Shown here piece after piece: positions 26,814-33,365 of a DNA stretch of 64,000 nt. The position numbers and the translations under genes were made by a program. The notes beneath the pieces are model-generated. The model was not told the DNA's origin. It saw only the letters and a program-made list of their open reading frames with translations, and did not search any database. Every line of letters starts with the position of its first letter. Within the stretch, counting starts at the first letter, position 1. Origin of the DNA: Glycomyces xiaoerkulensis (GTDB lineage Bacteria > Actinomycetota > Actinomycetes > Mycobacteriales > Micromonosporaceae); the NCBI RefSeq assembly GCF_002798405.1, contig NZ_PGGV01000033.1, positions 124,001 to 188,000 on the forward strand, written 5' to 3'.

Positions 26814-28055
26814 TCACTCGATGAGGAACTCGGTGTTCAGCAGCAGGTTCGGGCTGCCGTTCGGGTCGCTGACCGCGCCCGCGACCGCGTTCGCCGTCAG
26901 CGCCTCGGACACCTCGGCCGGAGTCGCCTCCGGTTCCGCCTCCAGGTAGAGCGCGGCCGCGCCCGCGACGTGCGGAGCGGCCATGGAGGTGCCGGAGATG
27001 GTGTTCTCGGCCTCGTCGCCCTCGATCCACGCCGAGGTGATGCGCACGCCGGGGGCGAGGAGGTCGACGCATTCGCCCCAGTTGGAGAACGAGGCGGCGG
27101 CGTCGTTGCTCCGCGTGGCGCCCACCGTGATCGCGGTCGGCTCCGAGCCCGGCGAGACGCCGCAGGAGTCCGCCCCCTCGTTGCCGGAGGCGATCGCGAA
27201 GGTCACCCCGGACCCGACCGCTTCGGCCACGACGTCGTTGAGCGCCTGGCTGAAGGTCCCGCCCAGGCTCATGTTCACCACGGCCGGGCCCTCGGCGTCG
27301 TCCACGACCCAGTCGATCCCGGAGATGATGCCCGCGTAGCTGCCCGAGCCGTCGCAGTCCAGGACCCGGACCGGGACCAGGGTGGTCTCCTTGGCGACGC
27401 CGTAGGTCGCCCCGCCCACGGTGCCGGCGACGTGGGTGCCGTGCCCGTGGCAGTCGGAGCCGTCGCCGCCGAAGTCGATCGCGTCGTAGCCGGGCGCGGT
27501 GCGGCCGGTGAACTCGCTGTGGCCCAGGTTGATGCCGGTGTCGAGAATGTACGAGGTCACCCCGGCGCCGGCGTGGGCGTACTCGTAGGAGCCGTCGGGC
27601 GGTGCCGCAGGCTGGTCGAGCCGGTCGAGGCCCCACGAGGGCGGATCGGTCTGCACTTCGGCGATCGAGACGGTGCGGTTCTGCTCGACGTAGGCGACCG
27701 CGTCGTCGGCGGCCAGTTCGGCGGCCTCGGCCGGGCTCATCTCGGCGACGAACCCGTCGAGGACGTCAAGCTCGTCGACCACCTCGACCGCTCCGACGGC
27801 CCCGGAGACGACGCCGTCGACCAGTGAGGCGAGGCCGGCCTCGGCCGGTGCGGCCTCGTCGAGCACCACCAGGTACTCGCCGGCGATGGCGTCGGGGTCG
27901 TCGGCGCCGAGCACGACCGCTTCCGGGTCGGCCGCACCGGTCTGGCCGGCGGTGGCGATCGCGTTGAGTGCGATGAGTGATCCGCCTGCCGTTGCGCTCG
28001 CCACCGCGATCGCGCCGATGCGGCGGAGCCTCCGTTTGCTTCCTGCCCTTGACAT
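26814..28055 (-). CDS. Secreted S8 subtilisin-like serine protease
   Basis: A 413-residue preproprotease. A signal peptide (about residues 1-36) is followed by an inhibitor I9-type propeptide (GEYLVVLDE to AYVEQNRTVSIA). The catalytic triad is Asp172 (LDTGIN), His205 (HGTHVAG) and Ser357 (GTSMAAPH), with the oxyanion Asn292 in ASGNEG. It belongs to the proteinase K-like group by its H-G-T-H and D-C-x-G-x-G pattern. It has no C-terminal add-on domain, unlike its neighbour. A secreted, self-processing endopeptidase is expected. Confidence 0.94.
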   Translation of the reverse strand: MSRAGSKRRLRRIGAIAVASATAGGSLIALNAIATAGQTGAADPEAVVLGADDPDAIAGEYLVVLDEAAPAEAGLASLVDGVVSGAVGAVEVVDELDVLDGFVAEMSPAEAAELAADDAVAYVEQNRTVSIAEVQTDPPSWGLDRLDQPAAPPDGSYEYAHAGAGVTSYILDTGINLGHSEFTGRTAPGYDAIDFGGDGSDCHGHGTHVAGTVGGATYGVAKETTLVPVRVLDCDGSGSYAGIISGIDWVVDDAEGPAVVNMSLGGTFSQALNDVVAEAVGSGVTFAIASGNEGADSCGVSPGSEPTAITVGATRSNDAAASFSNWGECVDLLAPGVRITSAWIEGDEAENTISGTSMAAPHVAGAAALYLEAEPEATPAEVSEALTANAVAGAVSDPNGSPNLLLNTEFLIE

Positions 28056-28362
28056 AACGGGGGGAACTCCTTTGGTTTTCCGCGGCCCCGAGGAAACGAC
28101 CGACGCGGGGTGGCGAGGGGGTCGCCCGGGGAGTCCGATTGGTCCGTTCGGCCCTATTTGAGGGCTCGTCAGGTTCTGAGGCTAGGGCACGGAGTAAAAC
28201 TCGTAAAGGCCCCGAATCAGAAAAATGCGCTATTGATCCGATCGGGAGAAGAAAAGTCTAAAAGCGACGAACATTGCGAAGTCGGGCGATCACACGGCGC
28301 GAGGCCGGAGCGTGCGCTCCGGCCTCGCGGCTGTTCGATCTTCAATTGTGCTGCGGAGGGAA
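28056..28362 (-). promoter_or_regulatory. Gene-free stretch with promoter of the first subtilase
   Basis: This 307-base region holds the terminator of the upstream subtilase (28299-28328) and the leader of the downstream one. TAGCCT on the minus strand near 28180 is a possible -10 box. An AT-rich patch lies at 28192-28275. I see no gene in it. Confidence 0.4.
28299..28328 (-). terminator. Strong terminator hairpin
   Basis: GCGAGGCCGGAGCG (28299-28312) pairs with all 14 bases of 28315-28328. It lies 35 bases after the second subtilase stop. Confidence 0.75.
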
Positions 28363-29919
<1,557 letters not shown>

Positions 29920-30266: not shown

Positions 30267-33200
30267 ATGACCTCCGAAGCCCCCCGGCGCCGCGACCGGC
30301 TCCGCAAGCTCGTCTCGGGGGGACTGCTCACGCTCGGGCCGTCGGTCCTGCTGATCACCGTCTTCTGGGAGACCCTGCGCGAACGCATCCCCATGAGCCT
30401 CCCGGCCCTCAGCGGATCGGCGCTGCTGCTCATCGCCGTCGGCTTCCTCACCCTCCTCGGTGAGGAGATCGGCCGCCGCTGGGCCAAGCGCGCCGCCGGC
30501 CAACTCGACCCCTACCGGTGGTGGTGGCTGGCCAGGCAGCGCCGCGCCTACATCGCCCAACTGGCCGACCACGCCGCCGAGATCCAGCTCTACGGCGTCG
30601 CCACCCACGGCCCCTACGCCATGCGGCTTCCCGAAGTCCACGTCGCCACCGGCCTGATCCGGCCCCGCCACGGCCTGCCGGACGGCCGCCACACCGGACA
30701 GTCCCTACTCGAGGTGCTGGAGGGGCCCGAACGGCGCGCCTTCGTCATCATCGGCGAACCCGGCGCCGGCAAGACCACCCTGCTGCGCCACACCGCACTC
30801 CACATCTGCCAGAGCCGCCGCCACCAGCGCCGCCACCTGCCGGTCCTTGTCTACCTCCGCGACCACGTCGACACCATCCTCGACGACCCCGGCGGCGTCA
30901 CCGTCGCGACCCTGCTCGAGGAGACCCCCTCGCTGCGCCACCGCGCCATCGCCTCGGGCGTCCGGCAGCGCCTCGAATCCGGCCGCTGCCTCGTCCTGCT
31001 CGACGGACTCGACGAGATGGCCGGCGTCGAGGCCCGCCAGGAGGTCGCCCGCTGGATCAAGGACCAGATGGAGTGCTACCCCGACTGCGACTTCGTGGTC
31101 ACCGCCCGGCGCCAAGGCTACGACAACACCGTCCTGGCCGACCTCGACACCGTGCGCGTGCAGCGGTTCGACTGGCCCCAGATCGAACGCTTCGTCCACC
31201 GCTGGTGCTACTCCGTGCGCTGCCAGGAGACCGAGAGCACCGGCCGCGCCGTCCGCGTCAAGTCCGACAAGGACGCCCGGCGGCTGCTCAAACTCATCGG
31301 CGACAGCCGCGAACTGCGCCACCTGGTGTCGAACCCGCTGCTGCTGATCATGATCTGCAACGTCGACCGCTACCGGGGCCAACTGCCGGCCGGCCGCGCC
31401 GAGCTCTACCGCGAAATGTGCGAGATGCTCATCCACCGCCGACGCCAGCAGAGCGGCGTCCGCAGCCACTTCGACCCCCTCACCGCACGGCAGAAGGTCG
31501 CCCCGCTGCGCGAACTCGCCCTCCGCATGATGGGCGAACGCACCCGCCGCACCGGCACCGCCGAAGCCGTCGCCGTCTTCGCCGGACGCCTCCGCGGCGC
31601 ACCGCGCCGAGTCGACCCCGAAGACTACCTGCGCCAAGCGGTCGAGAACGGCATCCTCGTCGAAGACGGCCACGACACCTACAGCTTCGCGCACGTCACC
31701 CTGCAGGAATACCTCGCCGCCGCCGCACTCCGCGACCTCGGTGACGACGCGTTCCTCGCCAAGCGCATCGACCAGGTCTGGTGGCGCGAGACCATCCTTC
31801 TGTGGGCGGCCGAAGGCGAGGCCGACAGCGTCGTCCACGCCTGCCTCCAGGCCGGCGACGTCGACTCCCTCCTGCTCGCCGAGGAATGCATGAACGTCGC
31901 CGCCGAACTCGACCCCGGCCTGCAGCACCGGCTGAACGCCATCCTCGAAGACCACTCCACCCTGGACTCCAGCGACCGCGCCGTGGTCGACCAGCTCCTG
32001 CTCCGCCGCAACGTCGCCGACACCGTCCCGGTCGGCCCCGAGGCCGACCTCTGCGTCGTCCCCCTGCGCTACGCCGTCTGGACCCGCTTCCTCACCGACC
32101 TGCGCTTCAACGACTGCCTCGATCCGCCCGGCCGCATCCGCAACGGCGAAGCCGCCGCCGGCATGTGGCCCATCTACGTGGACAAATTCCTCAACTGGGC
32201 CAACCACTACGCCGAACCCGGCCACCGCTACCGGCTCCCGGCCGCCGCCGAACTGCACGCCTACTTCGAAGCCGTGCCCACCGAAGCCGTCCCCCACCCG
32301 CTCTGGGTCGAAGCCGAACCCCACCCGCGCCTCTACTGCCCCACCGGCGTCGACAACACCTACACCGCCGACCGGGCCCAGATCATCGCAACGCTCCGGA
32401 CCGACCGGGCCGACACCCACGGGCACCGCCTCCTCGCCCTGGCCGTCCGCGTCGCCATGCACCGCAAAGGCGCCGTCGTAGCCGACCCCATGCAGTTCCG
32501 GGACCTGTTCGACATCGCCCGCGGCATCGACACCGCCCGCCCCATCGACGAGATCCTCGACCGCGCCCTCAGCCAGCTCTTCGCCCGCATCCGCGCCCTC
32601 TCCGGATTCACCGGCTGGCGCCCCCACTTCAACTGGGAACCGCACCTCGCCGACCTCGGCGACAACGAATTCGTCCGCTCCCTGGTCCGCAAGGGGCTCT
32701 TCCCCGAACGGGCGGCCGTCGAAGACCTCCTGGCCGTCCGCGCCCACCTGGTCGCGGTCTCGCTGTGGATCCACGAAGCGGTGCGCAACCCCCAGGCCCG
32801 CCCCAACCTCGAATCGGAGGAACGCTACCTCGACACCGTCGGCGCCGCCGAAGGCGACGCCCCCGTCTACCCAGACGAGGTCGTACCGGCCATCCGCGCC
32901 GCCGCCGAAGCGATCGAGAGCGGACGCGTCACCGACGAGGCGTTCGCGCCCCTCGCCGGCAAGGCCGCCGGGCTCCTGCGCGACTGCGAACGCGCTCTCA
33001 CCCCCATCCTCGACCGGCAGGCCCGCTTCGACGCCGACCGCATCGCCACCGCGCGCCTCGCCCTCAACGCCGCCGCGGCCTTCACCCACCGCCTCCTCGA
33101 CGACCCCGGCGCCACCGACCTCCTGCGCCGGGCCATCACCGGACTCGTCGTCGTCTCCGCCCGCGCCACCGGCGACGACGACACCGGCGAGCACGGCGAC

Positions 33201-33365
33201 GAACTCCTGCTGCTGGTGCGCGAGCCGCTCCCGACCGACGGCGAACCCGAGCGCCCGCCCGCGCACGAGATCGTCGTCCGCCGCCGCGGCCGCATCGCGA
33301 TCGCGCTGGCCCGGCTCGGCTCCTGGTGGCGGCGGCGGTCCCAGGACCGCCGACCGGCGCGTTGA
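30267..33365 (+). CDS. Membrane-anchored NACHT NTPase with FGE-like segment
   Basis: A 1032-residue NTPase. Two hydrophobic segments (about residues 19-35 and 50-65) anchor the N-terminus. The NACHT domain starts near residue 155 with Walker A GEPGAGKTT (163-171), Walker B CLVLLDGLDE (241-250), and an arginine-rich sensor-like VVTARRQGY. After helical NACHT-associated parts, residues about 590-670 resemble a degenerate formylglycine-generating-enzyme (FGE) fold: VVPLRYAVWTRFL, later MWPIYVDKFLNWANHY and GHRYRLPAAAEL. The C-terminal 350 residues are helical and of unknown role. Bacterial NACHT proteins are often antiphage sensors, so a defence role is possible, but this is inference. It is a single gene with no obvious partner. 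Confidence 0.85.
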   Translation: MTSEAPRRRDRLRKLVSGGLLTLGPSVLLITVFWETLRERIPMSLPALSGSALLLIAVGFLTLLGEEIGRRWAKRAAGQLDPYRWWWLARQRRAYIAQLADHAAEIQLYGVATHGPYAMRLPEVHVATGLIRPRHGLPDGRHTGQSLLEVLEGPERRAFVIIGEPGAGKTTLLRHTALHICQSRRHQRRHLPVLVYLRDHVDTILDDPGGVTVATLLEETPSLRHRAIASGVRQRLESGRCLVLLDGLDEMAGVEARQEVARWIKDQMECYPDCDFVVTARRQGYDNTVLADLDTVRVQRFDWPQIERFVHRWCYSVRCQETESTGRAVRVKSDKDARRLLKLIGDSRELRHLVSNPLLLIMICNVDRYRGQLPAGRAELYREMCEMLIHRRRQQSGVRSHFDPLTARQKVAPLRELALRMMGERTRRTGTAEAVAVFAGRLRGAPRRVDPEDYLRQAVENGILVEDGHDTYSFAHVTLQEYLAAAALRDLGDDAFLAKRIDQVWWRETILLWAAEGEADSVVHACLQAGDVDSLLLAEECMNVAAELDPGLQHRLNAILEDHSTLDSSDRAVVDQLLLRRNVADTVPVGPEADLCVVPLRYAVWTRFLTDLRFNDCLDPPGRIRNGEAAAGMWPIYVDKFLNWANHYAEPGHRYRLPAAAELHAYFEAVPTEAVPHPLWVEAEPHPRLYCPTGVDNTYTADRAQIIATLRTDRADTHGHRLLALAVRVAMHRKGAVVADPMQFRDLFDIARGIDTARPIDEILDRALSQLFARIRALSGFTGWRPHFNWEPHLADLGDNEFVRSLVRKGLFPERAAVEDLLAVRAHLVAVSLWIHEAVRNPQARPNLESEERYLDTVGAAEGDAPVYPDEVVPAIRAAAEAIESGRVTDEAFAPLAGKAAGLLRDCERALTPILDRQARFDADRIATARLALNAAAAFTHRLLDDPGATDLLRRAITGLVVVSARATGDDDTGEHGDELLLLVREPLPTDGEPERPPAHEIVVRRRGRIAIALARLGSWWRRRSQDRRPAR

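Follow-up and report, generated by a model that had tools for sequence, protein, structure and literature searches.

In a 64,000-nucleotide stretch of DNA from the soil actinobacterium Glycomyces xiaoerkulensis (the window; contig NZ_PGGV01000033.1, positions 124,001 to 188,000, of assembly GCF_002798405.1, a genome of 4.37 Mb in 40 contigs, here G000), a single gene at 30267-33365 on the + strand encodes a putative membrane-anchored NACHT NTPase that carries a segment resembling one half of a formylglycine-generating enzyme (FGE). Its open reading frame begins with ATG, is uninterrupted by stops and encodes 1032 amino acids. On the same strand, the product comprises two putative transmembrane helices (residues 15-33, positions 30309-30365, and residues 47-65, positions 30405-30461), a linker (73-150, 30483-30716), a NACHT NTPase core (159-313, 30741-31205), the helical and winged-helix part of NACHT (321-500, 31227-31766), an FGE/FGS-like N-terminal half (590-690, 32034-32336; the half-FGE), a fast-evolving C-terminal region that is a candidate sensor (691-1003, 32337-33275), and a basic C-terminal tail (1004-1032, 33276-33362).

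The NACHT domain is complete. Residues 159-313 match PF05729 (NACHT) above the Pfam cut-off (E=2.2e-10), and the Walker A motif GEPGAGKTT (G163-T171) and Walker B motif CLVLLDGLDE (241-250) lie exactly where a first-pass annotation of this DNA had put them. Relatives were compared in a family of 25 members, comprising the hits whose own alignment continues beyond residue 600 or so; the family alignment excludes hits that are truncated, split or duplicated (L046, L053, L064, L065, L068-L070, L072 and L079-L081), and further matches in G339 and G355 lie outside the family set. Residues G163, G166, G168, K169, D246, G247 and D249 are invariant in all 25, as are P357, L358, L359, L360, F474, H476 and Y482 in the part that follows, which contains NPLLL and FAHxTxQEY motifs. 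A conserved histidine after the NTPase core has a recognised role in NACHT and STAND proteins, and here it is H476, within FAHVTLQEYLAA. Upstream of Walker A, the linker holds a strand that is of the type VYVDVxL in the family alignment and reads EVHVATGL in the G. xiaoerkulensis protein. Judged by its Walker motifs and its conserved-histidine part, the protein belongs to the NACHT clade, and it is very probably a STAND switch.

Residues 590-690 contain the elements PV..Y..F, G.W......F..W and YRLP..EL, followed by a W, in a stretch that the first-pass annotation had described as a worn FGE-like fold. When columns 570-720 of the family alignment were compared by HHalign with 24 true FGE domains drawn from the G. 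xiaoerkulensis genome and its relatives, the score was 36.2 (E 4.8e-5, probability 68%), and columns 590-690 alone gave a probability of 78% (E 1.7e-5), these E-values applying to one template. Longer windows were weaker (probabilities of 45% for columns 500-700 and 27% for 560-1003). The P-V..Y..F, F..W and YRLP..E elements align in register with FGE, and the controls scored lower, with 16.9 for the best of 60 column shuffles, 12.8 for the reversed comparison and 11.9-16.9 for six other windows of the family. Columns 700-1003 did not match FGE (HHalign score 7.1). The active-site cysteines of FGE sit in the second half of its fold, and it is this catalytic half that finds no counterpart in those columns. 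With respect to PF03781 (FGS), therefore, the N-terminal half is homologous by profile comparison, with neither a Pfam match nor a second half, and of the FGE/FGS fold the protein appears to contain the N-terminal half alone. An enzymatic role for the segment is unlikely, given what is generally known of FGE.

A reciprocal test pointed in the same direction. In this test a hidden Markov model (HMM) of the half-FGE was run against 182 entries, 91 proteins or domains and 91 shuffled copies of them, and at E<=10 it recovered the 25 members of its own family, followed only by L147 (E 0.0012), L149 and 13 of the 24 FGEs, with no match among the 91 shuffled decoys. When the family profile was searched against PDB sequences, the best match was chain 7spq_A (E=2.2e-4, positions 591-679), which is labelled 'Serine/threonine kinase ToxD' and has the same three elements as the half-FGE. 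Read by eye from its letters, the aligned stretch of this chain seems to be an FGE-type fold; no paper on the chain was found.

Other results would fit a gene worn by decay, or a resemblance to FGE that arose by chance. Taken one by one, the FGE matches of the half-FGE HMM are weak (E 0.47-8.9 at Z=177635), which counts against FGE homology; the same HMM missed 11 of the 24 FGEs, the complete FGE of protein P0003 and the FGE of L026, a comparison NACHT, and an HMM of the 24 FGEs matched none of the 25 family members. Pfam gave no FGE match in the protein even at E<=10 (HMMER filters drop most matches above about 0.1), and therefore routine annotation misses the segment; FGE is also not among the 25 most frequent, which are those listed, of the 63 Pfam families that match the 25 members. 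The structural check that the first-pass annotation had proposed was run, with AlphaFold2 models of residues 560-1003 (5 sequences; mean pLDDT 57.7) and 570-695 (mean pLDDT 53.4) that gave nothing in Foldseek at E<=0.001. L147 aligned poorly to the short segment and was left out of this prediction. Both models are too poor to support or refute an FGE fold. Decay or chance is nevertheless very improbable and largely contradicted by an HHalign score more than twice that of any shuffle, by the specificity of the half-FGE HMM, and by the invariant residues and selection described below.

Across the 25 members, P599, G632, W644, R656, L657, E662 and W680 of the half-FGE are near-invariant (>=90%). 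Among six orthologues, mean pairwise identity is 0.72 in both the half-FGE and the NACHT core, whereas it falls to 0.53 in residues 691-850 and 0.52 in 851-1003. The dN/dS ratios of four orthologue pairs, which are useful only for comparing regions, dS being compressed by high GC content at third codon positions (GC3), were 0.08, 0.25, 0.30 and 0.29 for the half-FGE, 0.18, 0.36, 0.21 and 0.32 for the NACHT and helical part, and 0.26, 0.61, 0.55 and 0.51 for 691-1003. The half-FGE has the lowest ratio of seven regions in three of these pairs and the third lowest in the remaining one, and 691-1003 has the highest among the large domains in each of the four; in two pairs the short linker is higher still, at 0.61 and 0.81, and values for the hairpin range from 0.12 to 0.51. 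In every region and every pair dN/dS is below 1. By these measures the half-FGE segment is not decaying and is under purifying selection, so that of the first-pass description the resemblance to FGE stands, beyond what chance gave in the controls, and the word worn does not.

Because of this contrast in identity and dN/dS, we place the candidate sensor in residues 691-1003, which is likely a better candidate than the half-FGE, and we infer for the latter a coupling or structural module. The region 691-1003 is mostly helical in the low-confidence AlphaFold2 model and ends, family-wide, in a conserved stretch of the type GLxxxExRxxG....LLxRE in the alignment; the tail that follows (1004-1032) is present in the six Glycomyces orthologues, while most other members stop earlier and L003 has a short, different tail. 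The first-pass annotation had instead seen a sensor in the FGE-like part, which is the constrained one. That the half-FGE binds a ligand directly, like the FGS domain of published STAND-FGS systems and the versions diversified by diversity-generating retroelements (DGRs), would agree with the published proposal for FGS domains (PMC8195603, as excerpted) and with its location C-terminal to the NTPase. However, just half of the fold is present, and its dN/dS of 0.08-0.30 is at odds with an arms-race sensor, which should vary. Further, RVT_1 matches were found only on contigs C26 and C7, whereas the gene lies on C27 (template repeats were not searched, and a DGR may act remotely), so that the gene differs from the DGR versions in having no reverse transcriptase found on its contig. 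Direct sensing by the half-FGE is thus improbable.

At the other end of the protein, the two N-terminal membrane helices named by the first-pass annotation are borne out as hydrophobic segments (Kyte-Doolittle values 1.94 for residues 15-33 and 2.11 for 47-65). They are flanked on the outside of the hairpin by basic stretches, with six lysines or arginines in residues 1-14 and eight in 66-100. Flanking basic residues mark the cytoplasmic side of a membrane segment; both ends of the hairpin are therefore predicted to be cytoplasmic, and a hairpin with a cytoplasmic NACHT domain would be the simplest topology. Two hydrophobic segments within the first 150 amino acids are present in 22 of the 25 family members (one segment in two members, none in one), a count that is descriptive and not an unbiased test, the family having been chosen for long alignments. 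None of 38 other NACHT relatives, a comparison set that excludes 16 loci, has two N-terminal segments (12 have one, 26 none). The hairpin is a trait of this membrane NACHT/half-FGE family. Its sequence is conserved little, with a family-wide identity of 0.21 (276 pairs), and only residues 691-850 are lower (0.18).

The 25 members belong to the GTDB family of G. xiaoerkulensis, except that L003 and L004 represent two further families within the class; all four named relatives found for the protein in genome contigs are from Glycomyces. Orthologues occur in 6 of 22 Glycomyces genomes, its own among them and the others at 54-74% identity, and some related genomes contain several NACHT matches each. 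A truncated member of 322 amino acids, L053 (G342), ends within the NACHT domain, a sign that genes of this family also get lost by breakage. Searches of phages with the protein gave nothing at E<=1e-5, and searches of plasmids gave 54 records, all below 60% identity and none covering 80%; the arm and half-FGE piece alone gave no plasmid match at E<=1. A phylum-wide search with the arm and half-FGE alignment, which scored at most seven candidates per genome and is likely to have misses, matched at least 3 of 396 genomes including its own, the other two in the FGE part only, and an order-wide search with the last 421 amino acids matched 4 of 298, again including its own.

The same layout is found in L147, a viral contig (IMG/VR 3300003272_000012; 43% GC at the locus) with hydrophobic N-terminal segments seen by eye, a NACHT domain (E=2.9e-14) and a half-FGE detected by HMM. 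Directly after the half-FGE, at L147:7040-7652, a repeat of period 12 and multiples of it encodes about 200 residues of [R/L/G/S][A/D] dipeptides, and in-frame slippage in this repeat could vary the candidate sensor. Elsewhere, FGE-type parts occur in longer frames (688-958 amino acids) behind an unnamed domain in several Glycomyces genomes (L142 and kin), and in L134, L135, L145 and L146 a long FGE-type frame adjoins another gene, which we take to resemble CoA-transferases. On plasmid pNsp_c of Nostoc sp. ATCC 53789 (L192), a BrxA family gene followed by brxL of a BREX system stands one gene away from the gene for a NACHT protein with hydrophobic N-terminal segments, the latter again seen by eye.

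In Glycomyces, the NACHT gene sits between subtilase and ABC-F genes at 5 of 21 ABC-F sites and is absent from the other 16 (21 genomes have the ABC-F gene; G665 gave no match at the threshold used). At 15 of the NACHT-free sites the gap holds 309-499 bases. In G656 it holds 1659, occupied by a TnpB-like gene (L090:5709-6968, OrfB_IS605 E=1.5e-27), and therefore the gap accepts insertions of different kinds, the NACHT gene in some genomes and the TnpB-like gene in this one. G657 has its NACHT gene elsewhere in the genome and none in the gap. On the ABC-F tree the presence of the NACHT gene needs four changes, of which well-supported branches force at least three; at 97% ABC-F identity to each other, G664 carries the gene and G607 lacks it. 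Given this patchy occupancy and the contrast between G664 and G607, the gene is accessory and has either come and gone or travelled together with its flanks. Between G655 and G664, NACHT protein identity is 84% where ABC-F identity is 86%; in three other pairs with 85-86% ABC-F identity it is 69-74%, and this difference suggests transfer. At this site, 1-3 tandem subtilase (S8) genes stand beside the ABC-F gene, in the window at 26814-29919 and with varying copy number in other Glycomyces. An ARAGORN call of a tRNA-Arg at 27350-27431 on the - strand lies inside the subtilase gene 26814-28055 and is probably a false positive.

No gene family recurs adjoining the NACHT gene across 19 neighbourhoods compared all-against-all, beyond groups of close relatives, which agrees with the first-pass observation that no partner gene is adjacent. 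The few families shared by 3 to 8 loci (ABC ATPases, subtilases and three smaller ones) do not adjoin it outside the Glycomyces site; the neighbour gene caller used a simple GC3 rule and missed two low-GC members. PADLOC matches of neighbours were only to broad domains. Seven upstream neighbours that were scanned encode ordinary proteins of six kinds, namely a PriA-type protein, GH114 (twice), an oxidoreductase, a methyltransferase, GrpB and a helix-turn-helix protein (under the cut-off). In L098, L101 and L102 the NACHT gene directly follows another on its own strand, overlapping it or starting within 16 bases; this upstream gene was rejected as a partner, being PriA-type at one of the three loci and GH114 at two that belong to a single genus. 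The flanking subtilase and ABC-F genes were likewise rejected, since 16 of the 21 sites have them side by side with no NACHT gene.

Because no partner gene recurs, the effector is probably inside the protein itself. Searches with Pfam, PADLOC and NCBIfam found no known effector domain, including no effector-associated domain (EAD) or other known effector N-terminus of those named in the excerpted text of PMC8195603, and these libraries may lack some EADs. An alternative is that the same STAND switch uses the hairpin only as an anchor, senses an event at the membrane, such as entry of phage DNA or damage to the envelope, and passes the signal to an effector encoded elsewhere. The low identity of the hairpin, among the least conserved parts of the family as expected of an anchor, and its simple charge pattern are consistent with this. 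However, no partner recurs in the 19 neighbourhoods, and two helices are kept in 22 of 25 members where one would suffice for anchoring. We regard the anchor alternative as somewhat unlikely.

Taken together, we hypothesize that the protein is a STAND switch, kin to the NLR sensors of animal and plant immunity and held at the cytoplasmic surface of the cell membrane, which most likely acts as a stand-alone alarm. Characteristically, STAND switches are activated through nucleotide exchange. At rest, the protein would be an ADP-bound NACHT monomer kept closed by its C-terminal part. The region 691-1003 would bind a trigger, most likely a product of a phage or other invader or a sign of cell damage, and the half-FGE, between the NACHT core and this region, would serve as a structural coupling or interaction module with no enzyme activity. 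Binding would lead to nucleotide exchange and ring-like oligomerisation, which would cluster the two-helix hairpins so that the membrane is depolarised or permeabilised and growth or infection stops. The excerpts of PMC12169576 and PMC13092281 describe NACHT and other STAND proteins as coupling recognition with assembly and with the action of an effector, and several of those from bacteria as stopping phages. We infer the trigger, the oligomerisation, the membrane damage and the antiphage role, and for defence this is the status that the first-pass annotation had already given it. An antiphage role by itself is slightly favoured, while the complete model, in which assembly of this single-gene switch damages the membrane in defence against phages, is about evenly balanced. 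It is possible, if doubtful, that these proteins form a distinct membrane NLR-like family in which the truncated FGE, no longer a sensor, is a rigid coupling module that joins the NTPase to a fast-evolving sensor at the C-terminus and the hairpins of the NACHT ring form a pore; such a family would be centred on Glycomyces and its GTDB family and, just as tentatively, would be a one-protein counterpart of the pore-forming plant resistosome.

Several observations weigh against this hypothesis. PADLOC found only partial P-loop matches in the protein (best E=1.1e-4), and similarity to EruA (NCBIfam NF058535) is weak, with its best stretch at residues 346-500 and a score of 47.7 bits, far below the cut-off of 1000, so that the protein is not assigned to that family; the name EruA did not appear in the listed literature matches among open-licence papers. 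The characterised STAND proteins named in the available part of PMC10907252 have a nuclease domain as effector, and the hairpin could be a mere anchor. The presence of the NACHT gene clusters on the ABC-F tree no better than chance (160 of 500 shuffles were as low), which fits movement and also repeated loss. GC3 of the G. xiaoerkulensis gene is host-like (0.93), and the gene is therefore a long-term resident. Nor does it lie in a defence island, the scanned surroundings holding subtilases, ABC-F, leuA and further ordinary genes. In favour of the hypothesis, two members have a lower GC3, L002 in the same genome (0.75) and L044 in another Glycomyces genome, G305 (0.74), and these two lie near an integrase-type and an IS4/5-type transposase gene.

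Chromosomal location, host-like GC3, ordinary neighbours and the several NACHT matches in some related genomes would suit a STAND-type protein that regulates signalling or development in multicellular actinobacteria and plays no part in immunity. However, an orthologue is present in just six of the 22 genomes of the genus and has been repeatedly gained or lost, a family gene is truncated in another genome (L053), and NACHT-FGS proteins are tied to conflict systems in the excerpted text of PMC8195603. A non-immune regulator is thus unlikely.

Among the closest known systems are the FGS-STAND fusions with varied N-terminal effectors that were described in 2021 as counter-invader systems and, in the available part of that paper, as widespread in several bacterial and archaeal lineages (PMC8195603; FGS = PF03781). 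Like them, the Glycomyces protein joins a NACHT/STAND NTPase and an FGE/FGS-fold part in one chain, but it holds only the N-terminal FGS half, followed by a further region of about 310 residues, and it has a membrane hairpin instead of their EAD, TIR, calcineurin, caspase or trypsin modules. The CLec-STAND targets of retroelements described in 2024 (PMC10907252) include CLec/FGE-NACHT targets of Thiohalocapsa PB-PSB1, which also combine NACHT or another STAND NTPase with a CLec/FGE-fold part and some of which, by the extract, are predicted to reach the periplasm, a further likeness; their CLec is diversified, whereas in three of the four pairs no region is more constrained than the half-FGE. 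The antiphage protein bNACHT25 (PMC12169576, in part) shares the central NACHT and tripartite layout, but has an N-terminal nuclease and an NCH1 C-terminus in place of a putative transmembrane hairpin and a half-FGE.

Within our own searches, P0003 (WP_343211472.1; L190, an Alisedimentitalea plasmid) and the viral-contig L149 likewise unite NACHT and FGE in one gene, and P0003 also has one hydrophobic N-terminal segment (by eye). Both differ in that their C-terminal FGE has both halves (PF03781 E=8.8e-39 and 2.3e-47), and L149 in its calcineurin-like N-terminus; the NACHT score of P0003 (26.2) is just below the Pfam cut-off of 26.7. L026 is a NACHT with an FGE above the Pfam cut-off (E=4e-37) that starts from profile position 88. 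The combination of membrane anchor and FGE-like part, which the first-pass annotation had called unusual, is thus not without precedent, given these proteins and the published fusions (PMC8195603, PMC10907252, as excerpted).

So far, NACHT-FGE proteins have been proposed as immune sensors from domain architecture, and CLec domains joined to STAND proteins lacked experimental characterisation according to the accessible text of PMC10907252. This compact single-gene family would allow two ideas to be told apart, the FGE-type fold as a ligand binder and the same fold as a conserved hinge beside the real sensor. It would also reveal if membrane hairpins of its own let an NLR-like protein kill when it has no enzyme domain. 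The membrane-hairpin form with a half-FGE was not found among the listed matches of searches in the open-licence literature, and what is new relative to the known STAND-FGS fusions is the membrane hairpin, the half FGS and the extra C-terminal region.

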